The notes under the pieces were generated by a model that was not told the DNA's origin, did no database searches, and saw only the letters and a list, made by a program, of their open reading frames with translations. From Egibacteraceae bacterium (GTDB lineage Bacteria > Actinomycetota > Nitriliruptoria > Euzebyales > Egibacteraceae): 50,650 nt of DNA. The position numbers and the translations under genes are program-made. The DNA lies in contig JBBDQS010000048.1 in assembly GCA_040905805.1 (NCBI GenBank), positions 78,706-129,355 on the forward strand. Reading direction: 5' to 3'. Below, piece by piece: positions 24,788 through 46,052 of the stretch. Each line of letters begins with the position of its first letter. Position 1 is the first letter of the stretch.

Positions 24788-24810
24788 GCACAGATCGTGT
24801 GCCGCGTCAA
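24788..24810 (-). promoter_or_regulatory. PadR promoter with overlapping operator
   Basis: On the minus strand TTGACG (24810-24805) is a good -35. After 17 nt comes ATGCAT as a weak -10. The spacer contains the 15-bp dyad GCACA-CGATC-TGTGC (24788-24802), placed to block RNA polymerase. Confidence 0.45.
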
Positions 24811-27125
24811 TGCCCGCGCCCGGACGATGCGGCGGCGACGGCGGCTTGTCCGAGGCTGATGCCGCCGTCGTTGGGGGGCACCTGGCGGTGGCGCAGGACC
24901 GTGAAGCCCCGTTGCTCGAGCAGGTCCACGGCGGTGCCGAGCAGGCGGAGGTTCTGCCAGACACCTCCGGACAGCGCGACGGTCGACAGGCCGGTGCGGT
25001 CGCGCAGCACGACACAGGTCTCGACGACCGCGGCGGCGAGGCTGTTGTGGAAACGGGCGGCCAGCACACCGACATCCGTGCCCCGGCGCTGGTCCTCGAC
25101 GACCGCGGCAACCAGCTCGTCGCCGCGCAGTCGCAGCGGTGCGCCATCCTCGAGGCGCATGGGGTAGGTGCCCGCCTCCTGCGGGTCGGCCCGCTGCTCG
25201 AGCTCGATCGCCGCCTGCCCCTCGTAGCGCACATGGTCGCGGATGCCGACCAGTGCCGCGACGGCGTCGAAGAGGCGGCCGGCGCTCGAGGTGGCAGGCG
25301 CCGACACGCCCGAGCGGCCCACCGCGAGGATCGTGTCCCACCGCGCCTCGTTGCGCCGGGCGACATCGTGGGCTTCGTCCGCCAGGCCGGCGGCGTCGAG
25401 GTGGGCCGCCGCCATGCGCCACGGCTCGGCGATGGCCCGTGCGCCACCCGGCATGGGCACGGGGGCCAGGTGCGCGGCACGGTCGAAGCCCGTGAGGTCG
25501 CAGACCAGGAACTCCCCACCCCACAGTGTGCCGTCGGTGCCGAAGCCGAGCCCGTCGAACGCCACCCCGATGACGCGACCAGCATGGCCGTTGTCGGCCA
25601 GGCACGAAGCGATGTGCGCATGGTGGTGCTGCACCCCGAGCAGCTCGACCGCCTCCAGCTCCGCTGCGTACTTCGTCGAGAGGTACTCCGGATGCAGGTC
25701 GTGGGCGACCAGCTGCGGCACGATGTCGAAGAGCCTGCCGAAGTGCGCGATGCCCTCGGTGAACGACCGCAGGGTCTCGTAGTTCTCCAGGTCGCCGATG
25801 TGGTGGGAGACGAAGGCGCGCCGGCCGTGGGCGAGGCAGAAGGTGTTCTTGAGCTCTGCGCCGCAGCCGAGGATCGCGCGGCTCGTGGAGTGGGGCAGCC
25901 GCAGCGGCTGGGGCGCGTACCCGCGGGACCGTCTGACGGGCAGCTCCTGACCGCGGAAGGCCCGGGTGACCGAGTCGTCGGTGCGGATGTGGATGGGCCG
26001 ATCGTGGATGAGGAACGCGTCGGCGATGGAGGCAAGCCGCTCGCGGGCGTCCTGGTCGTGGTAGGCAATCGGTTCGTCCGAGACGTTGCCGCTGGTCAGG
26101 ACGAGCGGCGCACCGAGCTGGTCCGCGAGCAGGTGGTGCAGGGGCGTGTAGGGCAGCATCACCGCGAGGTGGCCGTTGCCCGGCGCCACACCGGTCGCCA
26201 CCGGCGCCGTCGGAAGGCGACGCAGGAGCACGGCCGGGCGACGGGGGCCGGTCAGCAGCGCCGCCTCCACGGAGTCGACCGCGCACAGGGTCCGCGCAGC
26301 GTCGAGGTCGCGAGCCATCACCGCGAAGGGCTTGTCCTCGCGATGCTTGCGGTGGCGCAGCGCCTCGACGGCAGCCTCGTCGCCTGCCATCACCGCGAGG
26401 TGGTAGCCGCCGAGGCCCTTGATCGCCACCACCCGGCCGGCATGGAGCAGGGCCACGGTGGCCGCGAGTGGATCGCCCGCCACGGCTGCGTGCTCGGCGT
26501 CCGTCAGCGACAGCGTCGGTCCGCAGGCCGGGCAGCACACGGGCTGGGCATGGAATCGGCGGTCGCGGGGGTCGTGGTACTCGGCGGCGCACGCGGCGCA
26601 CATCGCGAAGCCGGCCATGGTCGTGTTCGGCCGGTCGTAGGGCACGTCGGTCACGATGGTGAAGCGGGGGCCGCAGTTCGTGCAGTTGGTGAAGGGGTAG
26701 GCGTACCGGCGGTCGGCCGGATCGGCGATCTCGGCCAGGCAGTCCCCACAGGTGGCCATGTCCGCCGAGATGAGGGTCTCGCGGCGCCCGCCCGGCGGGC
26801 TGTCGACGATGACGAACCGCTGCCCCCCGACCGGGGGGAGGCGCTCGCGACGCACGCCCTCGACCACGGCCAGGGGAGGGGCCTCGCCTTCGAGAGCCGT
26901 GACGAACCGCTCCAGCGCGGGGGCCGGCCCCTCGGCCTCGATGAAGACGCCACCGGCGTCGTTGCCGACGAAGCCCGTCAGCCCGCATCGCGAGGCGAGC
27001 GCGTGGACGAACGGCCGGAAGCCCACGCCCTGGACGACGCCGTCGACCCGGATACGGTGGCGCACCCGTCCGGAGGCGTCGCCGGCCCGGGAATCAGCCG
27101 GGGAATCAGCCGGGGAATCAGCCAT
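24807..27125 (-). CDS. hypF: Carbamoyltransferase HypF
   Basis: 772-aa [NiFe]-hydrogenase maturation factor that uses carbamoyl phosphate and ATP to make the HypE thiocarboxamide, source of the CN ligands of the active-site iron. Domains in order: acylphosphatase (RVDGVVQGVGFRPFVHAL), two zinc fingers (CGDC...CTNC and CAAC...CPAC), a YrdC-like domain (KGLGGYHLAVMA, KHREDKPFAVMARDL) and a C-terminal Kae1-like domain with metal ligands in GVQHHHAHIASCL. Length is normal. The N-terminus begins with an extra acidic ADSP-repeat from a 12-bp tandem repeat. The CooC-type gene diverges about 40 bp away. Confidence 0.95.
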   Translation of the reverse strand: MADSPADSPADSRAGDASGRVRHRIRVDGVVQGVGFRPFVHALASRCGLTGFVGNDAGGVFIEAEGPAPALERFVTALEGEAPPLAVVEGVRRERLPPVGGQRFVIVDSPPGGRRETLISADMATCGDCLAEIADPADRRYAYPFTNCTNCGPRFTIVTDVPYDRPNTTMAGFAMCAACAAEYHDPRDRRFHAQPVCCPACGPTLSLTDAEHAAVAGDPLAATVALLHAGRVVAIKGLGGYHLAVMAGDEAAVEALRHRKHREDKPFAVMARDLDAARTLCAVDSVEAALLTGPRRPAVLLRRLPTAPVATGVAPGNGHLAVMLPYTPLHHLLADQLGAPLVLTSGNVSDEPIAYHDQDARERLASIADAFLIHDRPIHIRTDDSVTRAFRGQELPVRRSRGYAPQPLRLPHSTSRAILGCGAELKNTFCLAHGRRAFVSHHIGDLENYETLRSFTEGIAHFGRLFDIVPQLVAHDLHPEYLSTKYAAELEAVELLGVQHHHAHIASCLADNGHAGRVIGVAFDGLGFGTDGTLWGGEFLVCDLTGFDRAAHLAPVPMPGGARAIAEPWRMAAAHLDAAGLADEAHDVARRNEARWDTILAVGRSGVSAPATSSAGRLFDAVAALVGIRDHVRYEGQAAIELEQRADPQEAGTYPMRLEDGAPLRLRGDELVAAVVEDQRRGTDVGVLAARFHNSLAAAVVETCVVLRDRTGLSTVALSGGVWQNLRLLGTAVDLLEQRGFTVLRHRQVPPNDGGISLGQAAVAAASSGRGH
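27087..27122. repeat. 12-bp tandem repeat in the hypF 5' end
   Basis: CGGGGAATCAGC occurs twice in tandem (27099-27110, 27111-27122), preceded by a copy with one mismatch (27087-27098). It encodes the ADSPADSPADS N-terminus of HypF. The unit is a multiple of three, so changes in copy number would keep frame. Confidence 0.8.
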
Positions 27126-27165
27126 GTGCTCGCCATGATACGGAGCGACCCGGTACGGTATGCGG

Positions 27166-27924
27166 ATGCGCATTGCATTCGTCGGTAAGGGCGGCGCCGG
27201 CAAGTCGGCGATCGCCGGCACGTTCGCCCGCCTCCTCGCGCAGCGCGGGGAGCCCGTGCTGGTGCTGGACTCGGACCCGCTGCCGGGTCTTGCCTACTCG
27301 CTGGGCATGGACAGCACCGATGCGGGCATCCCTGACGAGGCGGTGATGGAGAACCCCGAGGAGGGTGGCCCCCGCTACATCCTGCGGGAGGGGCTGACCG
27401 CCGCGGACGCGGTCGAGCAGTACGCCGCCGAGGGTCCGGACGGGGTCCGGGTCCTGCAGTTCGGCAAGATCCACGACGCCGGCCGCGGGCTCATGCGCTC
27501 GCAGTTCGCCTACCGCCAGATCACCGGGCAGCTGCCCGACGACAAGTGGAGCATCGTCGGCGATCTCCCCGGCGGGACGCGCCAGCCGTTCCTCGGCTGG
27601 GGCCGTTACGCCACCACGGTGCTGGTGGTCGTCGAGCCGATGGCCAAGTCCTTGCTCTCGGCGCGGCGCCTCGCGCGCCTGCAGCTCATCGACGACCCAC
27701 CGCGCGTCGTCGCCCTGGCCAACAAGGTCCGCGACGAGGGGGATGTCGAAATGGTGGCGGAGCGCACCGGTTTGGAGGTCATCGGGGCGGTCCCCCTGGA
27801 CGACGCGATGGCGGAGGCCGACCGGCGAGGCCGGCCGGTCGTCGAGGACGCCCGGGACTCACCGGTGGTCAAGGCGATAGACTCGCTCGTGGAACGGCTT
27901 CGTGCCGAGGAGGAAACCGCATGA
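27166..27924 (+). CDS. CooC/MinD-type ATPase lacking the metal-binding cysteines
   Basis: 252-aa SIMIBI-class P-loop ATPase related to CooC, the nickel-insertion ATPase. The deviant Walker A is VGKGGAGKSAIAG with the signature lysine, followed by VLDSDPLPGLAYSLGMD. The region that holds CxC in CooC reads FGKIHDAGRGLMRSQ instead, with no cysteine, so it probably does not bind nickel there and may pair with the next gene product. ATG at 27166 is preferred over 27160: it gives the family start MRIAFVGKGG, and TACGGT at 27154-27159 then sits correctly for a leaderless mRNA. It overlaps the next gene by 4 nt (ATGA). Confidence 0.8.
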   Translation: MRIAFVGKGGAGKSAIAGTFARLLAQRGEPVLVLDSDPLPGLAYSLGMDSTDAGIPDEAVMENPEEGGPRYILREGLTAADAVEQYAAEGPDGVRVLQFGKIHDAGRGLMRSQFAYRQITGQLPDDKWSIVGDLPGGTRQPFLGWGRYATTVLVVVEPMAKSLLSARRLARLQLIDDPPRVVALANKVRDEGDVEMVAERTGLEVIGAVPLDDAMAEADRRGRPVVEDARDSPVVKAIDSLVERLRAEEETA

Positions 27925-28655
27925 AGGTCGCAGTGGTCGGCAAAGGTGGGTCGGGCAAGACGACGACGTCGGCGGTGCTGGCCCGCACGATGGGCCGCCA
28001 AGGGCGGGCGGTGGTCGCACTGGACTGCGATAGCAACCCCAACCTCGGCATCTCGCTCGGCGTCGGCGATACCGAGACCGAGCGCTTGGACTCCATGCGC
28101 CAGGCCCTGGCCGAAGGCGAGGAGGAGCACGCGCCGGGCTGGGCGGAGCTGATGGACCGCTTCGGCTCCGACGCTCCCGACAACGTGCGCCTGGCGGTGG
28201 TCTCGCGCATCGAGAACCCGGAACCGGGCTGCCTATGATGCGGACTCTCGCCTGAGCAGTTGCTCGGGTCCGGGGAGTTCGGAGCATCGGTCGTCATCGC
28301 GGACTGCGAGGCGGGCATCGGCACGCTCACCCGCCTCGAGGAGAACGCGGTCGACGCGGTCGTGATCGTCGTCGAAGCCAACGCGAAGTCCCTCGAGGTC
28401 GGGACGCGAGCCGCCGGCCTGGCGGGTCAGCGGGCGAGCACGAGGACGGTGGTCCTGGCCAACCGCGTCCGCAACGACGAGGACATCGCGCGGGTCCGAG
28501 CCGCCTTCCCCGGCGTGGAGGTCGTGCCGATCCCCGACGACCCGGTCATCGTCGAGGCCGATCGCAAGGGCATTGCGCCGCTCGATCTGGACCCCGACGC
28601 GCCGGCGGTCGCAGCGCTCGTCGCGCTCGCCGGGGACCTGCTGCCCGCGGCGTGA
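27921..28655 (+). CDS. CooC-type ATPase with an in-frame TGA (probable selenocysteine)
   Basis: A CooC-like nickel-chaperone ATPase gene of 245 codons if the TGA at 28236-28238 is read through. Walker A is VVGKGGSGKTTTSAV, then DCDSNPNLGISLGV. The frame stays open before and after the TGA and both halves belong to one protein: downstream VIADCEAGIGTLTR and VVEANAKSLEVG match CooC. The local sequence is C104-L-U106-C107-G. The related ATPase at 30620 has C103-T-C105-S-G in the same place, so the TGA replaces the second Cys of CxC. A SECIS-like hairpin follows. Alternatives are a nonsense mutation (TGC to TGA) or a sequencing error. Starts with ATGA overlap and GAGGAGG upstream. Confidence 0.75.
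28241..28272 (+). promoter_or_regulatory. Candidate bacterial SECIS element
   Basis: The upper stem CCTGAGC/GCTCGGG (28251-28257, 28262-28268; 7 bp, one T-G) closes the tetraloop AGTT. The lower stem CGGA/TCCG (28241-28244, 28269-28272) is separated by a 6-nt bulge. The hairpin starts 12 nt after the TGA and the loop G and T fall at 24-25 counting the T of TGA as 1. In E. coli fdhF the hairpin starts after 11 nt and the key loop bases are G23 and U24. Confidence 0.65.
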
Positions 28656-30619: not shown

Positions 30620-31390
30620 TTAGCCGACCGGTGCGACGTCGGCGGGCTCCTCGGCGATGAAGTCGATCACGCGGTCGAGCGCGATCCGCACGGCGTCGGG
30701 CGGGTTCGTCGTGACCGCCGATCCGTCGCGGTCGGCGTCGGTCACGCCGGAGTCCATCGGGATGACCCCCGCCAACGGGACGCGGTACTCCGCGGCGATC
30801 TCGGCGAAGAACTCCGCGTCGTCGGGCAGGCGGGCCTTGTTGCCGACGCCGTAGACCCTGGGGATGCCGAGCTCCTCGGCCAGCGCGATCGTGCGGGCCG
30901 CCGTGATGACCGACTTGCGGCTGGGCTCCATGATCACGAGCAGCACGTCGGCGTAGGCGAGGGTGCCACCGGATCGGCTGAGGTGCTCCAGGCCGGCCTC
31001 CATGTCCACGAGGGTCACGTCGGCCTGCTCGGCGAGGACCTCGCCGAGGAAGTTGCGCACCGACGCGTGCCCCGAGCAGGTGCAGCCCGCGCCCGCCTCC
31101 ACCACCCGGATCGCCGAGAGCAGGATCGGACCCGCCGGTGTCTCGCGGCCGTACTTGTCGATGACCTCCTGGGAGGTCATGTCGCCGTCGGTGCCGACGA
31201 TGAGCCCGCGGGGCAGGACCGGCACCGCCTCCATGTCGTCCCAGCTGAGGCCGAGCGACATGCCGAGGTTCGGGTTCGAGTCCGTGTCGATCGCGATGAC
31301 GCGATCTCCGCGCGCGGCGTACGCCTGCGCGATGAGTGCGGAGGAGGTGGTCTTGCCCACGCCACCCTTGCCGACGATTCCGAGTTTCAT
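30620..31390 (-). CDS. CooC-type nickel-insertion ATPase
   Basis: 256-aa CooC-like SIMIBI ATPase, the type that delivers Ni to carbon monoxide dehydrogenase or similar enzymes after ATP-driven dimerisation. Walker A is VGKGGVGKTTSSA; DTDSNPNLGMSLGL follows. The metal-binding CxC is intact (AGAGC103-T-C105SGH), then VTLVDMEAGLEHLSRSG and VIMEPSRKSV. It is the full-cysteine counterpart of the TGA-containing ATPase at 27921. Start ATG at 31390 with GAGGAG upstream. It is divergent from the small membrane-protein cassette beginning at 31577. The target enzyme is not in the window. Confidence 0.88.
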   Translation of the reverse strand: MKLGIVGKGGVGKTTSSALIAQAYAARGDRVIAIDTDSNPNLGMSLGLSWDDMEAVPVLPRGLIVGTDGDMTSQEVIDKYGRETPAGPILLSAIRVVEAGAGCTCSGHASVRNFLGEVLAEQADVTLVDMEAGLEHLSRSGGTLAYADVLLVIMEPSRKSVITAARTIALAEELGIPRVYGVGNKARLPDDAEFFAEIAAEYRVPLAGVIPMDSGVTDADRDGSAVTTNPPDAVRIALDRVIDFIAEEPADVAPVG

Positions 31391-31576
31391 AGGTTTCTCC
31401 TCGCCACCGGTGTACGACGCCCGACCCCTCGACGGTACCACGAGCATGCCCGATGGTGCCGGGCTGAGCCCCTACACAGTGGCGGCGATGTGTGCCATCA
31501 TTGGGGAGTAGTCCGAGCCGAACGTGTCCCGGCAGCGAACCGGCCCGGGGAGAGCTTCGAGGAAGGGGTGACCGGC

Positions 31577-41279: not shown

Positions 41280-42485
41280 TCAGCAGATGCGGGGGAGGGG
41301 GTCGCCGACCAGGACGTCGACGATGCGGGTCCCGCCGAAGGTGGTCTTCAGCAGCACCAGGCCGGGGGGATCGTCGCTGATCGAACCGATCACCGCAGCG
41401 CCCTTGCCGAGGGGGTGGGCGTGCAGGGCCTCCAGGGCGGCGTCCGCCTCGGCGCCGTCGATGACGAGGACCATGCGACCCTCGCAGGCGACGTAGAGCG
41501 CGTCGATGCCGAGGATCTCCGTGGCGCCGAAGACGTCGGGGCGCATCGGGACCTTGCCTTCGTCGAGCACCGCGGCTATCTGCGAGGCCTGCGCGATCTC
41601 GTTCAGGACCGTCGCCACGCCCCCGCGCGTGGCGTCGCGCATGCAGCGCACGCCGGTGGTGGCGTCGAGCAGCCGGTCGATCAGCTCGTGCAGGGGGGCG
41701 GTGTCGGAGACGACGTCGGACTCGATCTCCAGCTCCCCGCGGGCGAGCATGACCGTCACGCCGTGCTCGCCGATGGGTCCGGACACGATGATCGTGTCGC
41801 CCGGCTGGGCGCTCGCGGCCGACAGGTTCAGGTCCCGCTCGAGCAAGCCGATGCCGGAGGTGTTGATGTAGCAGCCGTCGCCCTTGCCGCGGGGGACGAC
41901 CTTGGTGTCCCCGGTGACGATCTGCACACCCGCCGCGGCCGCGGCGGTCGCCATGGTCTCCACGATCCGCCGCAGGTCCGCGATCGGGAAGCCCTCCTCC
42001 AGGATGAACCCGGCGGACAGGCTGAGCGGGCGGGCGCCGGAGACCGCGAGGTCGTTGACCGTTCCGTTGACCGCCAGGTCGCCGATGTTGCCGCCCGGGA
42101 AGAACAGCGGCGAGACCACGAAGGAGTCCGTGGTGAACGCCAGCCGGGTGCCGCCCACGTCCAGCATCGCCTGGTCTTCCATGCGCTCCAGGGTCGGGTT
42201 GCGGAAGCTCTCCAGGAACAGCGCGTCGATCAGGGTCTGGGTGGCTTTGCCGCCCGCCCCGTGCGACATGGTGATGCGCTCCTCCTTGATCCGCGCCTTG
42301 CGGGCCCGTGCGCGCTCGATCTTCTGGTGCACCTGCTCCTCGCGGGAGAGGTGCGCCTCACCGGGGGCGTGCGGCGCGAGCTCGTGGAACTCCTCGTGCT
42401 CGCGCAGGGCCTCCTCGGCCCAGTCCGCGGAACGCGCCCCGTCGTCGTCGGGGGGGACGCCGGGAGCGGCGGCTTGGTCGGTCAT
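41280..42485 (-). CDS. hypE: Hydrogenase maturation protein HypE
   Basis: 401-aa ATP-dependent enzyme that dehydrates a C-terminal thiocarboxamide to thiocyanate for the Fe-CN ligands. The C-terminus is PLPRIC, with the modified Cys last. The PurM-like core includes HGAGGKATQTLI, VNGTVNDLAVSGA, VTGDTKVVPRGKGDG and TRGGVATVLNEIA. It is about 60-70 aa longer than usual: an acidic and then Arg/Lys-rich helical extension (HLSREEQVHQKIERARARKA) precedes the core. Start overlaps the hypD stop as ATGA. Confidence 0.93.
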   Translation of the reverse strand: MTDQAAAPGVPPDDDGARSADWAEEALREHEEFHELAPHAPGEAHLSREEQVHQKIERARARKARIKEERITMSHGAGGKATQTLIDALFLESFRNPTLERMEDQAMLDVGGTRLAFTTDSFVVSPLFFPGGNIGDLAVNGTVNDLAVSGARPLSLSAGFILEEGFPIADLRRIVETMATAAAAAGVQIVTGDTKVVPRGKGDGCYINTSGIGLLERDLNLSAASAQPGDTIIVSGPIGEHGVTVMLARGELEIESDVVSDTAPLHELIDRLLDATTGVRCMRDATRGGVATVLNEIAQASQIAAVLDEGKVPMRPDVFGATEILGIDALYVACEGRMVLVIDGAEADAALEALHAHPLGKGAAVIGSISDDPPGLVLLKTTFGGTRIVDVLVGDPLPRIC

Positions 42486-43606
42486 GTCCCGGTCGCCTCC
42501 CGGACGCGCTCGCGGGTGAACCGTCCGAAGTTGTAGTAGGCCGCGCAGGCGCCCTCGCTGGACACCATGCAGGTGCCGATCGGGGTCTCGGGGGTGCAGG
42601 CCGTGCCGAACACCTTGCACTCCCACGGCTTGAGCACGCCCTTCAGGACCTCGCCGCACTGGCAGGCCTTGGGGTCGGCCACGCGCACGCCCGGGACGTC
42701 GAAGACGCGTTCGGCGTCGAAGGCGGCGTACTCCTCGCGGACCTGCATCGCCGACTGGGAGATGAAGCCCAGGCCGCGCCACTCGAAGTAGGGCCGCAGC
42801 TCCATCGTCTGGCCGATGACCTTCAGCGCCGCGCGGTTGCCGTCCCACGGGACGACGCGGCTGTATTGGTTCTCGACCTCTGAGCGCCCTTCCTGCAGCT
42901 GCTTGAGGATCATGTAGACGCCCTGGAGGATGTCCAGCGGCTCGAAGCCCGAGGTCACGATGGGCTTGCCGTAGTCCCGGGCGATGAACTCGTAGGGCCG
43001 GCAGCCGATCACCGTGGAGACGTGCCCCGGCCCGATGAAGCCGTCCAGGCGCAGGTCCGGCGAGTCCAGGATCGCTTTGATCGCCGGGATGATCGTGACG
43101 TGGTTGCAGAAGATCGAGAAGTTCTCGAGGCCCTCGGCGGCCGCACGCAGCACCGTCGCCGCGGTGGACGGGGCGGTCGTCTCGAAGCCGATCGCCATGA
43201 ACACGACCCGCTTGTCGGGGTTGTTGCGGGCGATCTTCAGCGCGTCCAGCGGCGAGTAGACCATGCGGATGTCCGCGCCGGCGGCGTTGGAGTCGAAGAA
43301 CGATCCCCGGCCCCCGGGCACGCGCATCATGTCGCCGAAGGACGTCATGATGACGTCGTCGGACTCGGCGATCGCGATCGCGTCGTCGACGCGTCCCATG
43401 GGGATGACGCACACCGGACAGCCGGGTCCGTGGATCAGGGACACGTTCTCCGGGAGGTAGTCCTCGAGGCCGTGGCGGTAGATCGTGTGGGTGTGCCCCC
43501 CGCACACCTCCATGAACTTGTACTCGCGGGAGCCCGCAAGCTCGGCGATCTCCTTGGACAGCCGCTTCGCGATGTCCGCGTCGCGGTACTCGTCGACGAA
43601 CTTCAT
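42482..43606 (-). CDS. hypD: Hydrogenase maturation protein HypD
   Basis: 374-aa iron-sulfur scaffold on which, with HypC, the Fe(CN)2CO unit is assembled. Motifs: EVCGGHTHTIYRHG (with the essential Cys), HGPGCPVCVIP, GFETTAPSTA, and the C-terminal [4Fe-4S] cysteines spread over ACQCGEVLKG, WECKVFGTAC and the SSEGAC region. Length is standard. Overlaps at both ends (ATGA) with hypE and the SIS gene. Confidence 0.95.
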   Translation of the reverse strand: MKFVDEYRDADIAKRLSKEIAELAGSREYKFMEVCGGHTHTIYRHGLEDYLPENVSLIHGPGCPVCVIPMGRVDDAIAIAESDDVIMTSFGDMMRVPGGRGSFFDSNAAGADIRMVYSPLDALKIARNNPDKRVVFMAIGFETTAPSTAATVLRAAAEGLENFSIFCNHVTIIPAIKAILDSPDLRLDGFIGPGHVSTVIGCRPYEFIARDYGKPIVTSGFEPLDILQGVYMILKQLQEGRSEVENQYSRVVPWDGNRAALKVIGQTMELRPYFEWRGLGFISQSAMQVREEYAAFDAERVFDVPGVRVADPKACQCGEVLKGVLKPWECKVFGTACTPETPIGTCMVSSEGACAAYYNFGRFTRERVREATGT

Positions 43607-44277
43607 GGTGTCGCTCCTAGGCCTTCGAGGGCGGTCTGGGTCAGTTCCCACAGGACGTGGTACAGGGTCGTCTGGGCCTCCTGGATGCGGTGCACCGAGG
43701 TGGAGGGCACCACGAAGAGGAAATCGATGTTGTCGGCCTCGGCCATCTGTCCGCCGTCGTAGCCCGCCAGGCCCACGGAGATGAGCCCGCGACGCGAGGC
43801 CTCGTCGAAGGCGCGGAGCACGTTGGTCGACCCGCCCGACGTCGACAGCCCGACGGCGATGTCGCCGGGGCGCCCGAACGCCGCGATCTGGCGGGCGTAC
43901 ACGACGTCGAAGCTCACGTCGTTGGACAGCGCGGTGAGGACCGCGATGTCACCGGTGAGCGACAGCGCCGGCAGGGGGCGGTCGGGGGGACCGGGGTGCA
44001 GGAACGTGTTGACCACGTCTTGGGCATCGGTGCTCGACCCGCCGTTGCCGAAGGCGAAGAGCTTGCGGCCCGCGACGAAGGAGGCGGCCATCGCCTCGGC
44101 GCAGTCGACCAGCCGATCGGCGTGCAGCTCGAAGACCTCCTCGCGCAGCGCGACGATCTCCGCCGCCTTCTCGGCGGTGGACCGGCGCGCCTCCGTCAGC
44201 ACGGCGTCGACGTTCGATGCGTCGGCGTACAGGAACGGGTAGAGCGACTCGAAACCGCCCGGGGTGTCGTTGGCCAT
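43603..44277 (-). CDS. SIS domain protein (GmhA-like), copy 1
   Basis: 224-aa sugar-isomerase (SIS) domain protein of the phosphoheptose isomerase type. Motifs FAFGNGGSSTDAQDVVN and VGLSTSGGSTNVLRAFDEA match GmhA. GmhA makes lipopolysaccharide heptose, which an actinobacterium does not need, and the gene is embedded between hypD and a hypC-like gene. A hydrogenase-linked role, for instance binding a phosphorylated small molecule, is more likely. Such genes recur in actinobacterial hydrogenase operons. Confidence 0.85.
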   Translation of the reverse strand: MANDTPGGFESLYPFLYADASNVDAVLTEARRSTAEKAAEIVALREEVFELHADRLVDCAEAMAASFVAGRKLFAFGNGGSSTDAQDVVNTFLHPGPPDRPLPALSLTGDIAVLTALSNDVSFDVVYARQIAAFGRPGDIAVGLSTSGGSTNVLRAFDEASRRGLISVGLAGYDGGQMAEADNIDFLFVVPSTSVHRIQEAQTTLYHVLWELTQTALEGLGATP

Positions 44278-45158: not shown

Positions 45159-45437
45159 CTACTCGATGTCGCTGGTGGCGAGGTCGGACAGCTCCTCCTC
45201 GTACATCGAGCCGAGCTGCTCGAGGAACCGGAACGTCTCCTCCGCCTCCTTCTCGTCGATCTTGGACATGGCGAAGCCGACGTGGATCAAGACCCAGTCA
45301 CCGACCTCGATGCCGCCCTCGTCCGCCGGGATGAGCTGGATGGAGACGTTGCGGCGCACGCCGTTGACGTCTGCCTTGGCGATCCCGTTCTCCGGATCGA
45401 CCAGCTCCACGATCTTGCCGGGAATACCGAGACACAT
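45159..45437 (-). CDS. hypC: Hydrogenase assembly chaperone HypC
   Basis: 92-aa HypC/HupF chaperone. It begins MCLGIPGKIVELVD with the required Cys2, continues GIAKADVNGVRRNVSIQLIP and VGDWVLIHVGFAMSKIDE, and has a C-terminal helix EAEETFRFLEQL. It escorts the iron centre from HypD to the hydrogenase large subunit. It is the first gene of the minus-strand hyp operon, with GGAGGAG upstream of the ATG and a 16-bp palindrome about 100 bp before it. Confidence 0.95.
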   Translation of the reverse strand: MCLGIPGKIVELVDPENGIAKADVNGVRRNVSIQLIPADEGGIEVGDWVLIHVGFAMSKIDEKEAEETFRFLEQLGSMYEEELSDLATSDIE

Positions 45438-46052
45438 GGGATGCTCCTCCACCTGGGGGTGCTCATGGTATCTGCTGCCACCGCGCCGTACAGGGGGCGA
45501 TGGCTCGTGCCGCCACTCCATGCTAGCCGCATATACCTGTGGTACCACAGGCACTGGAACACGTTTCCCTCCGGCCGCTTGCTCCGACGCGCGTCGTGAT
45601 CCCCTAGACTGCCCGCACCCTGCACAGCATGACCCAGCGGCTGACCTGATCCGGGTCCGAGCAGCGCTGGTCGGGTGAAGTGCCGACCGCACCGAACCCC
45701 CTGGCTGTCCCAGTCGTTTATTCCGGCGGGACTAGTCAGGCTCCTAGGTGTGTGGTACACGTACGTCGGCCCCATCGAGGGGAGGGCCAACATGGCACTC
45801 GCAGGATCAGGAACGCAGCGTTGCGCCTCCTTGCCGGAGGCGTGACCGGTTGTGCCTGGTGCCGCCCCCGCACCCTTGCCCATCCAGTCGCCAGTCCGTT
45901 CGCCCGTCCAGCCGACATCGAGCCAAGCCGGCCCGAAGGAGGTTCGCGTTGATCCAAGACGCGGTTTGCGTTGACCCCAGATCAACATCAACAGCCGTTG
46001 TGGTGACCTGTGGTCACCGCGCGTCGTCCCTACACGATCAGGAGGTGGTCCA
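45438..46052. other. Long intergenic region between the hyp operon and the membrane-protein operon
   Basis: About 615 bp with no convincing gene. It holds the divergent promoters, a perfect 16-bp palindrome, a hairpin CGCCTCC-TTGCC-GGAGGCG (45824-45842), the dyads GTTGATC...GATCAAC (45948-45954, 45980-45986) and GGTGACC-TGT-GGTCACC (46002-46018). A 17-codon frame with a strong ribosome site (GGGGAGGG) starts at 45792. It may be a leader peptide, but nothing proves it is translated. Confidence 0.6.
45536..45551. promoter_or_regulatory. Perfect 16-bp palindrome, probable operator
   Basis: CCTGTGGTACCACAGG, fully symmetric, about 100 bp upstream of hypC and within reach of the divergent promoter. 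The TGTGGTACCACA core suggests a GntR-like or other dimeric repressor site. No matching regulator gene is adjacent. Confidence 0.6.

Follow-up and report, generated by a model that had tools for sequence, protein, structure and literature searches.

The locus examined here raises the question of whether an internal TGA codon in a gene for a CooC-type ATPase is a true stop or a site of selenocysteine (Sec) insertion, and what a Sec residue might contribute to such a protein. The gene resides in a stretch of 50,650 nucleotides, hereafter termed the window, from an Egibacteraceae bacterium (GCA_040905805.1, contig JBBDQS010000048.1, positions 78,706-129,355 of the forward strand). The features at issue are as follows.

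27921-28655, + strand: Sec-CooC, a CooC-type P-loop ATPase of 244 amino acids with a deviant Walker A motif (GKGGSGKTT) and the predicted motif C104-L-U106-C107-G
28236-28238, + strand: in-frame TGA, codon 106, predicted to be read as Sec from homologue comparison and from the occurrence of TAG with a CUA tRNA-Sec in Blastococcus
28239-28283, + strand: bacterial SECIS region, with the stem CCTGAGC (28251-28257) and GCTCGGG (28262-28268) and the loop AGTT (28258-28261)

An intact reading frame with one internal TGA

Positions 27921-28655 constitute one frame of 245 codons, encoding 244 residues plus a terminal TGA, in which the TGA at codon 106 is the sole internal stop. This agrees with a sequence-only reading of the same DNA, which had described a single open frame interrupted only at this codon, and the coding composition is indeed unchanged downstream: third-position GC is 0.90 before the TGA and 0.91 after it, and GC by codon position is the same on both sides. 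When the region downstream of the TGA is compared with that of a congener (G001), whose copy is 89% identical to the window gene, 38 synonymous and 21 replacement codon differences are observed, which indicates constraint at the protein level. The peptide around codon 106 reads G-C-L-U-C-G, such that the TGA falls on the second Cys of a CxC motif. The corresponding segment of a paralogue at 30620-31447 (- strand) is G-C-T-C-S-G, and the contrast between these two motifs drawn by the earlier reading is thus borne out. Standard ORF calling splits the Sec-CooC frame at the TGA.

Homologues carry only Cys or a stop at codon 106

Homologues were sought among 61 relatives of the host and in 84,980 species genomes, which yielded 20 further Sec-CooC members, with identities of 56-89%, from diverse Actinomycetota that include Acidimicrobiales, Euzebyales, Geodermatophilaceae, Nocardioidaceae and Amycolatopsis. 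Plasmid records searched for the family gave only one distant partial match. Codon 106 is either Cys (4) or a stop (16) in all 20 homologues, which is the Cys/Sec exchange that the sequence-only reading had anticipated from an alignment. With the window gene included (n=21), eight sequences have TGA at both codon 104 and codon 106 (U-x-U-C), a single stop is present in nine, and the remaining four encode C-P-C-C-G. The identical sequences L034 and L069 were counted once, and two of the eight double-Sec copies come from a single genome (G006). The proposal of one Sec in the motif therefore holds for the window gene, but not for the many relatives that have two.

Scattered stops in relatives would have refuted the assignment, and none are present except in L068, a frame-shifted copy of the Cys form from a MAG. 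With L068 set aside, the only other in-frame TGA in any member is at the first Cys of the same motif. That the congener and 19 more homologues keep Cys or a stop at exactly codon 106 argues that the TGA is not a chance occurrence. In the tree, the Nocardioidaceae Cys forms L063 and L065 are nested within the Geodermatophilaceae Sec forms (99/94 and 100/97), which fits a change from Sec to Cys in lineages that lack the machinery.

A conserved SECIS hairpin follows the TGA

The hairpin of SECIS geometry that had been noted after the TGA is recovered by folding as a 7-bp stem with the loop AGUU, in which the loop G and U are located at positions 24 and 25 (T of TGA = 1). Its distance is 19 nt from codon 106 and 25 nt from codon 104, and it has a minimum free energy (MFE) of -26.3 kcal/mol, compared with a range of -13.4 to -27.7 among stop-containing members. 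The published bSECIS model specifies a loop of 3-9 nt, the first two positions of which include G, a stem of 4-16 bp, a distance of 16-37 nt from the UGA and an MFE of at most -7.5 (PMC13188914). The window hairpin satisfies these limits for loop, stem, spacing and MFE.

As a 7-bp stem with an AGUU loop, GAGCAGTTGCT is common to all 17 stop-containing members. Pairs form in 99.2% of the 119 pair cells of the stem, versus 13-47% for slid partners, and compensatory changes are evident at the outermost pair (alternating between C-G and G-C) and at another pair (C-G, U-G, U-A). A shuffling control for the counts of pair types gave 303/500, although this control is weaker because most of the stem is invariant. 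Under the loop, the first Leu is invariably encoded by TTG, although this codon accounts for 3.3% of Leu codons in the window genes. The Cys members L063, L065 and L068 have lost GAGCAGTTGCT, and the Amycolatopsis Cys member retains a degraded SECIS-like copy, GAACAGTTGTTG, that may be a relic of the element.

Selenocysteine machinery and a UAG variant

A search for selA, selB, selC and selD, named in the sequence-only reading as a check, was successful for three of these genes in the host. Its genome carries selA and selB on one contig, and a selD gene that likewise contains an in-frame TGA, at the position of its Sec. The gene selC was not found in the host draft assembly (166 contigs, 95% complete): scans of the host sel contigs gave none, and the selC region of the congener matches only paralogous flanks in the host. 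The best Rfam match, at 47.7 bits, is a tRNA-Ser according to ARAGORN and was rejected as a candidate. The host genome was searched by family and by region only. In the congener and in most genomes of the set, tRNA-Sec is present.

Sec forms are accompanied by selA in 14 of 16 genomes and Cys forms in one of four (P=0.03); when scored by selA or selC, the association of form with machinery gives Fisher P=0.013 (species not independent). The Cys forms L063, L065 and L068 are in genomes without selA. Amycolatopsis marina (L060:6001-6732) carries a Cys form, with a hydrogenase as neighbour, despite the presence of selA and tRNA-Sec in its genome.

In Blastococcus saxobsidens DSM 44509, the motif codons are TGC-CCG-TAG-TGC, with the TAG at L067:6316-6318. 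The tRNA-Sec of this species (L095:1501-1596; 65.8 bits to Rfam tRNA-Sec) is encoded directly upstream of selA and has the anticodon CTA, and for this reason ARAGORN labels it as tRNA-Pyl. UAG-Sec decoding in B. saxobsidens has already been published for other genes (PMC5330540). The Blastococcus member matches this Geodermatophilaceae system in its use of TAG and its CUA tRNA-Sec, whereas the genes named there encode FDH, UGSC-motif proteins and AhpC, and the CooC-type gene is additional. A joint change of stop codon and tRNA-Sec anticodon would be very hard to explain without Sec.

These data bear on two explanations that dispense with Sec. It is hardly conceivable that the TGA is a true stop, or a sequencing error, in a pseudogene or split gene. 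Standard ORF calling does break the frame here, but a stop occupies the same codon in 17 distinct sequences, one of them from an isolate genome (Blastococcus), the coding composition continues unchanged beyond it, and the differences from the congener are mostly synonymous. Very unlikely, too, is decoding of the UGA as Cys or Trp, or readthrough, by a near-cognate tRNA, for which the failure to find selC in the host draft can be cited. Such decoding is at odds with the presence of TAG exactly where tRNA-Sec has a CUA anticodon, with a SECIS conserved through compensatory change, with the presence of selA, selB and selD, and with Cys at this site in three genomes without selA. The prediction of Sec at codon 106 is instead supported by the Cys/Sec exchange, the SECIS with its compensatory changes, the sel genes and the TAG/CUA co-switch. 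We conclude that 27921-28655 is an intact gene for a CooC-like ATPase predicted to be a selenoprotein, for which Sec incorporation is nearly certain on genetic grounds and protein data are lacking.

Identity of the ATPase

The closest solved relative by sequence is CooC1 (3kje; 4.4e-15), and C104 and U106 are aligned on its C-x-C. An AlphaFold model (pLDDT 87) adopts the MinD/CooC fold, and Foldseek searches with this model return FleN, MinD and CooC1 at similar scores, with NifH-type proteins also matched. Because FleN, MinD and CooC1 score alike, the fold alone is not decisive, and CooC identity is favoured by the motif together with the sequence match. The predicted protein meets the expectations for CooC in its SIMIBI/MinD fold, its deviant Walker A (GKGGxGKT) and a CxC at the CooC1 position, with Sec replacing the second Cys. 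A weak Pfam match to Fer4_NifH falls at the P-loop end. Assignment as a MinD/ParA partition ATPase was rejected, since the scores for the NCBIfam models minD_arch (45.9 bits) and ParA_partition (29.9) are below the cut-offs of 201.75 and 180, respectively.

One criterion, linkage to Ni-CODH, is not met: the neighbourhood is that of a [NiFe] hydrogenase, and no CODH catalytic gene was present among the neighbours scanned. CODH linkage is common to CooC homologues but is not required of each. Given this neighbourhood, the protein is filed as CooC-type rather than as the CODH accessory CooC itself. The sequence-only reading had named a CooC-type nickel ATPase; the CooC part stands on the 3kje match and the CxC position, whereas nickel is inferred from homology and the hydrogenase neighbourhood, without metal data. 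Like CooC1 of Carboxydothermus hydrogenoformans (the CODH nickel-insertion ATPase; 3kje, 3kjg-3kji), the window protein has this fold, a deviant Walker A and the aligned C-x-C, but it differs in that its motif includes Sec and is followed by a third, adjoining Cys, in being paired with a CxC-less paralogue, and in its location beside a hydrogenase.

The earlier statement that no selenoprotein of the CooC family had been described agrees with a 2026 review, which tabulates 119 prokaryotic selenoprotein families or subfamilies and includes none that are CooC, MinD or ParA-like (PMC13188914). NCBIfam (June 2026) has no matching selenoprotein model, and no paper on CooC with selenoprotein or selenocysteine was found in the open-licence literature, to which this search was limited. 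CobW proteins are P-loop NTPases that handle metals, and the CobW-related selenoprotein NF041053 presumably belongs to the G3E GTPases, a different P-loop family from Sec-CooC. NF041053 is probably the nearest listed selenoprotein (PMC13188914), but it carries a UxxC motif. Sec-CooC would thus be a new selenoprotein family, with four sub-lineages seen, beyond the current list of 119. It offers a natural UGA/UAG/Cys series at one codon. Sec would be located in a metal chaperone that is driven by ATP and encoded next to a hydrogenase, and the naturally occurring Cys and Sec forms allow the metal site itself to be compared. Standard gene calling breaks such genes, which are therefore probably overlooked when H2-scavenging Actinomycetota are annotated.

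A gene pair within a hydrogenase maturation island

The neighbourhood of Sec-CooC in the window includes the following genes.

27160-27924, + strand: CooC-like paralogue without CxC, the upstream partner, with a 4-bp ATGA overlap with Sec-CooC
30620-31447, - strand: third CooC-type ATPase, CxC intact (G-C-T-C-S-G), a conserved neighbour
24807-27221, - strand: HypF carbamoyltransferase for [NiFe]-hydrogenase maturation (TIGR00143, 767 bits)
41280-43505, - strand: frame with HypE as its C-terminal part (TIGR02124, 445 bits, residues 410-741)
42482-43651, - strand: HypD (PF01924, 524 bits)
45159-45692, - strand: HypC (PF01455, 90 bits)

The CxC-less CooC gene overlaps or abuts Sec-CooC in 19 of 21 members, mostly with the 4-bp ATGA overlap, and the two are probably translationally coupled. 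Across several lineages, the conserved island comprises the CxC-less CooC, Sec-CooC, the C-T-C CooC and a fourth CooC (C-L-C-S-A-H), as well as HypC, D, E and F, SIS-domain proteins and [NiFe]-hydrogenase subunits, although hydrogenase genes are not seen on every recovered locus (e.g. L057 and L058). The hydrogenase large subunit is closest to 5aa5 (497 bits), which we take to be the actinobacterial-type hydrogenase (group 1h, formerly 5) of Cupriavidus necator.

The host lacks HypB, and for HypA there is no more than a weak partial match. Among the genomes with the Sec-CooC family, 19 of 20 lack HypB. It is also missing, however, from most HypD-bearing relatives: 28 of the 30 HypD-bearing genomes among the 61 relatives have no HypB above the curated cut-off, and most of these are without the CooC pair. 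HypB loss consequently does not follow the presence of this pair, and a specific replacement of HypB by it is not supported. HypA/HypB nickel insertion resembles the system described here in proposed role and neighbourhood, but HypB is a GTPase from a different family.

Two [NiFe]-hydrogenase large subunits are encoded just past the window on the same contig, at L026:2679-4391 (- strand) and L026:6239-9383 (+ strand). One is near small membrane-like proteins; the other is accompanied by a small subunit, a NifU-domain protein and a GAPDH gene.

Proposed function of Sec-CooC

The dimer interface of CooC1 brings together two CxC motifs, which share a single metal. We propose that UGA 106, directed by the downstream SECIS, would insert Sec at the second of the two chalcogen positions in the metal-binding CxC, resulting in C-x-U-C in the window protein and U-x-U-C in many relatives. 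The tandem paralogues would probably form an ATP-driven asymmetric heterodimer in which only the Sec subunit supplies metal ligands. With a third chalcogen adjoining the motif (C/U-x-U-C) and a partner without CxC, the simplest reading would be a single ligand-rich site. Nickel would most likely be bound there and handed over during maturation of the neighbouring group-1h-like [NiFe] hydrogenase, with nickel binding and ATPase activity both inferred. With a selenolate, the metal ligand would be softer and more nucleophilic and could be oxidised reversibly, in an organism for which an aerobic lifestyle is inferred; tighter binding of soft metals and easier recovery from oxidation would be expected.

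As a whole, this account of a selenoprotein CooC-type ATPase that forms a heterodimer with its CxC-less partner and hands nickel to the neighbouring hydrogenase appears to us quite probable. Its foundations are evident from comparative sequence analysis, namely the Sec codon, the SECIS, the Cys/Sec exchange, the homology to CooC, the tandem gene pair and the nearby hydrogenase genes. Inference extends to the formation of a heterodimer, the identity of the metal as nickel, the role of the hydrogenase as client and any advantage conferred by selenium. Delivery of nickel to the hydrogenase is likely, but there are no protein or metal data to support it.

Even with Sec accepted, the U/C-x-U-C motif could be a redox relay (selenenylsulfide/diselenide) or a site for another metal, with ATPase-driven transfer of electrons or metal as in relatives of the nitrogenase Fe-protein. 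We consider this unlikely, yet not to be dismissed: redox roles are assumed for the majority of selenoproteins (PMC13188914), U-x-U-C brings together three closely spaced chalcogens, NifH-type proteins are among the Foldseek matches, and HypB absence is uncorrelated with the pair. By sequence, however, the best match is CooC1, whose metal-binding CxC is where the motif aligns, the conserved island is one of hydrogenase maturation, and the Fer4_NifH match is weak and confined to the P-loop end, all of which speak against this alternative.

Other CooC lineages with TGA in the motif

Three further CooC lineages carry TGA in the motif, reading G-U-T-G, G-U-L-C-G and G-U-G-G. The G-U-T-G(A/E/I)SHVTVRD lineage occurs in three genera (host C93:69352-70089, L056; G008:C14, L054; G040:C58, L133), and has predicted Sec at the first CxC position, Gly at the second and a loop starting G-U. 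The GGG-U-L-C-G-AHST lineage, from two genera (G050:C27, L036; G060:C78, L035), has its TGA at the first Cys of CxC. A host copy at C115:11204-11920 (L048) has a single predicted Sec in P-G-U-G-G and is located behind a CxC-less CooC partner. These three additional lineages suggest that Sec was probably adopted at either or both positions of CxC.

A broader hypothesis, which we advance only tentatively and consider possible rather than probable, is that a single superfamily of metallochaperones acquired selenium several times, with Sec at the first CxC position, the second or both, or in reduced U-x-G/U-G-G forms. On this view, the symmetric CooC homodimer would be replaced in the window type by an asymmetric heterodimer with U-x-U-C on one subunit only, which would insert nickel into high-affinity [NiFe] hydrogenases of lineages that lack HypB. 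The host CooC paralogues on C115, C14, C93 and C85 have no clear nickel-enzyme neighbours. There is no hydrogenase near the C115 copy, which has the same AGTT hairpin after its TGA, and the C93 copy is near a FecCD transporter gene.
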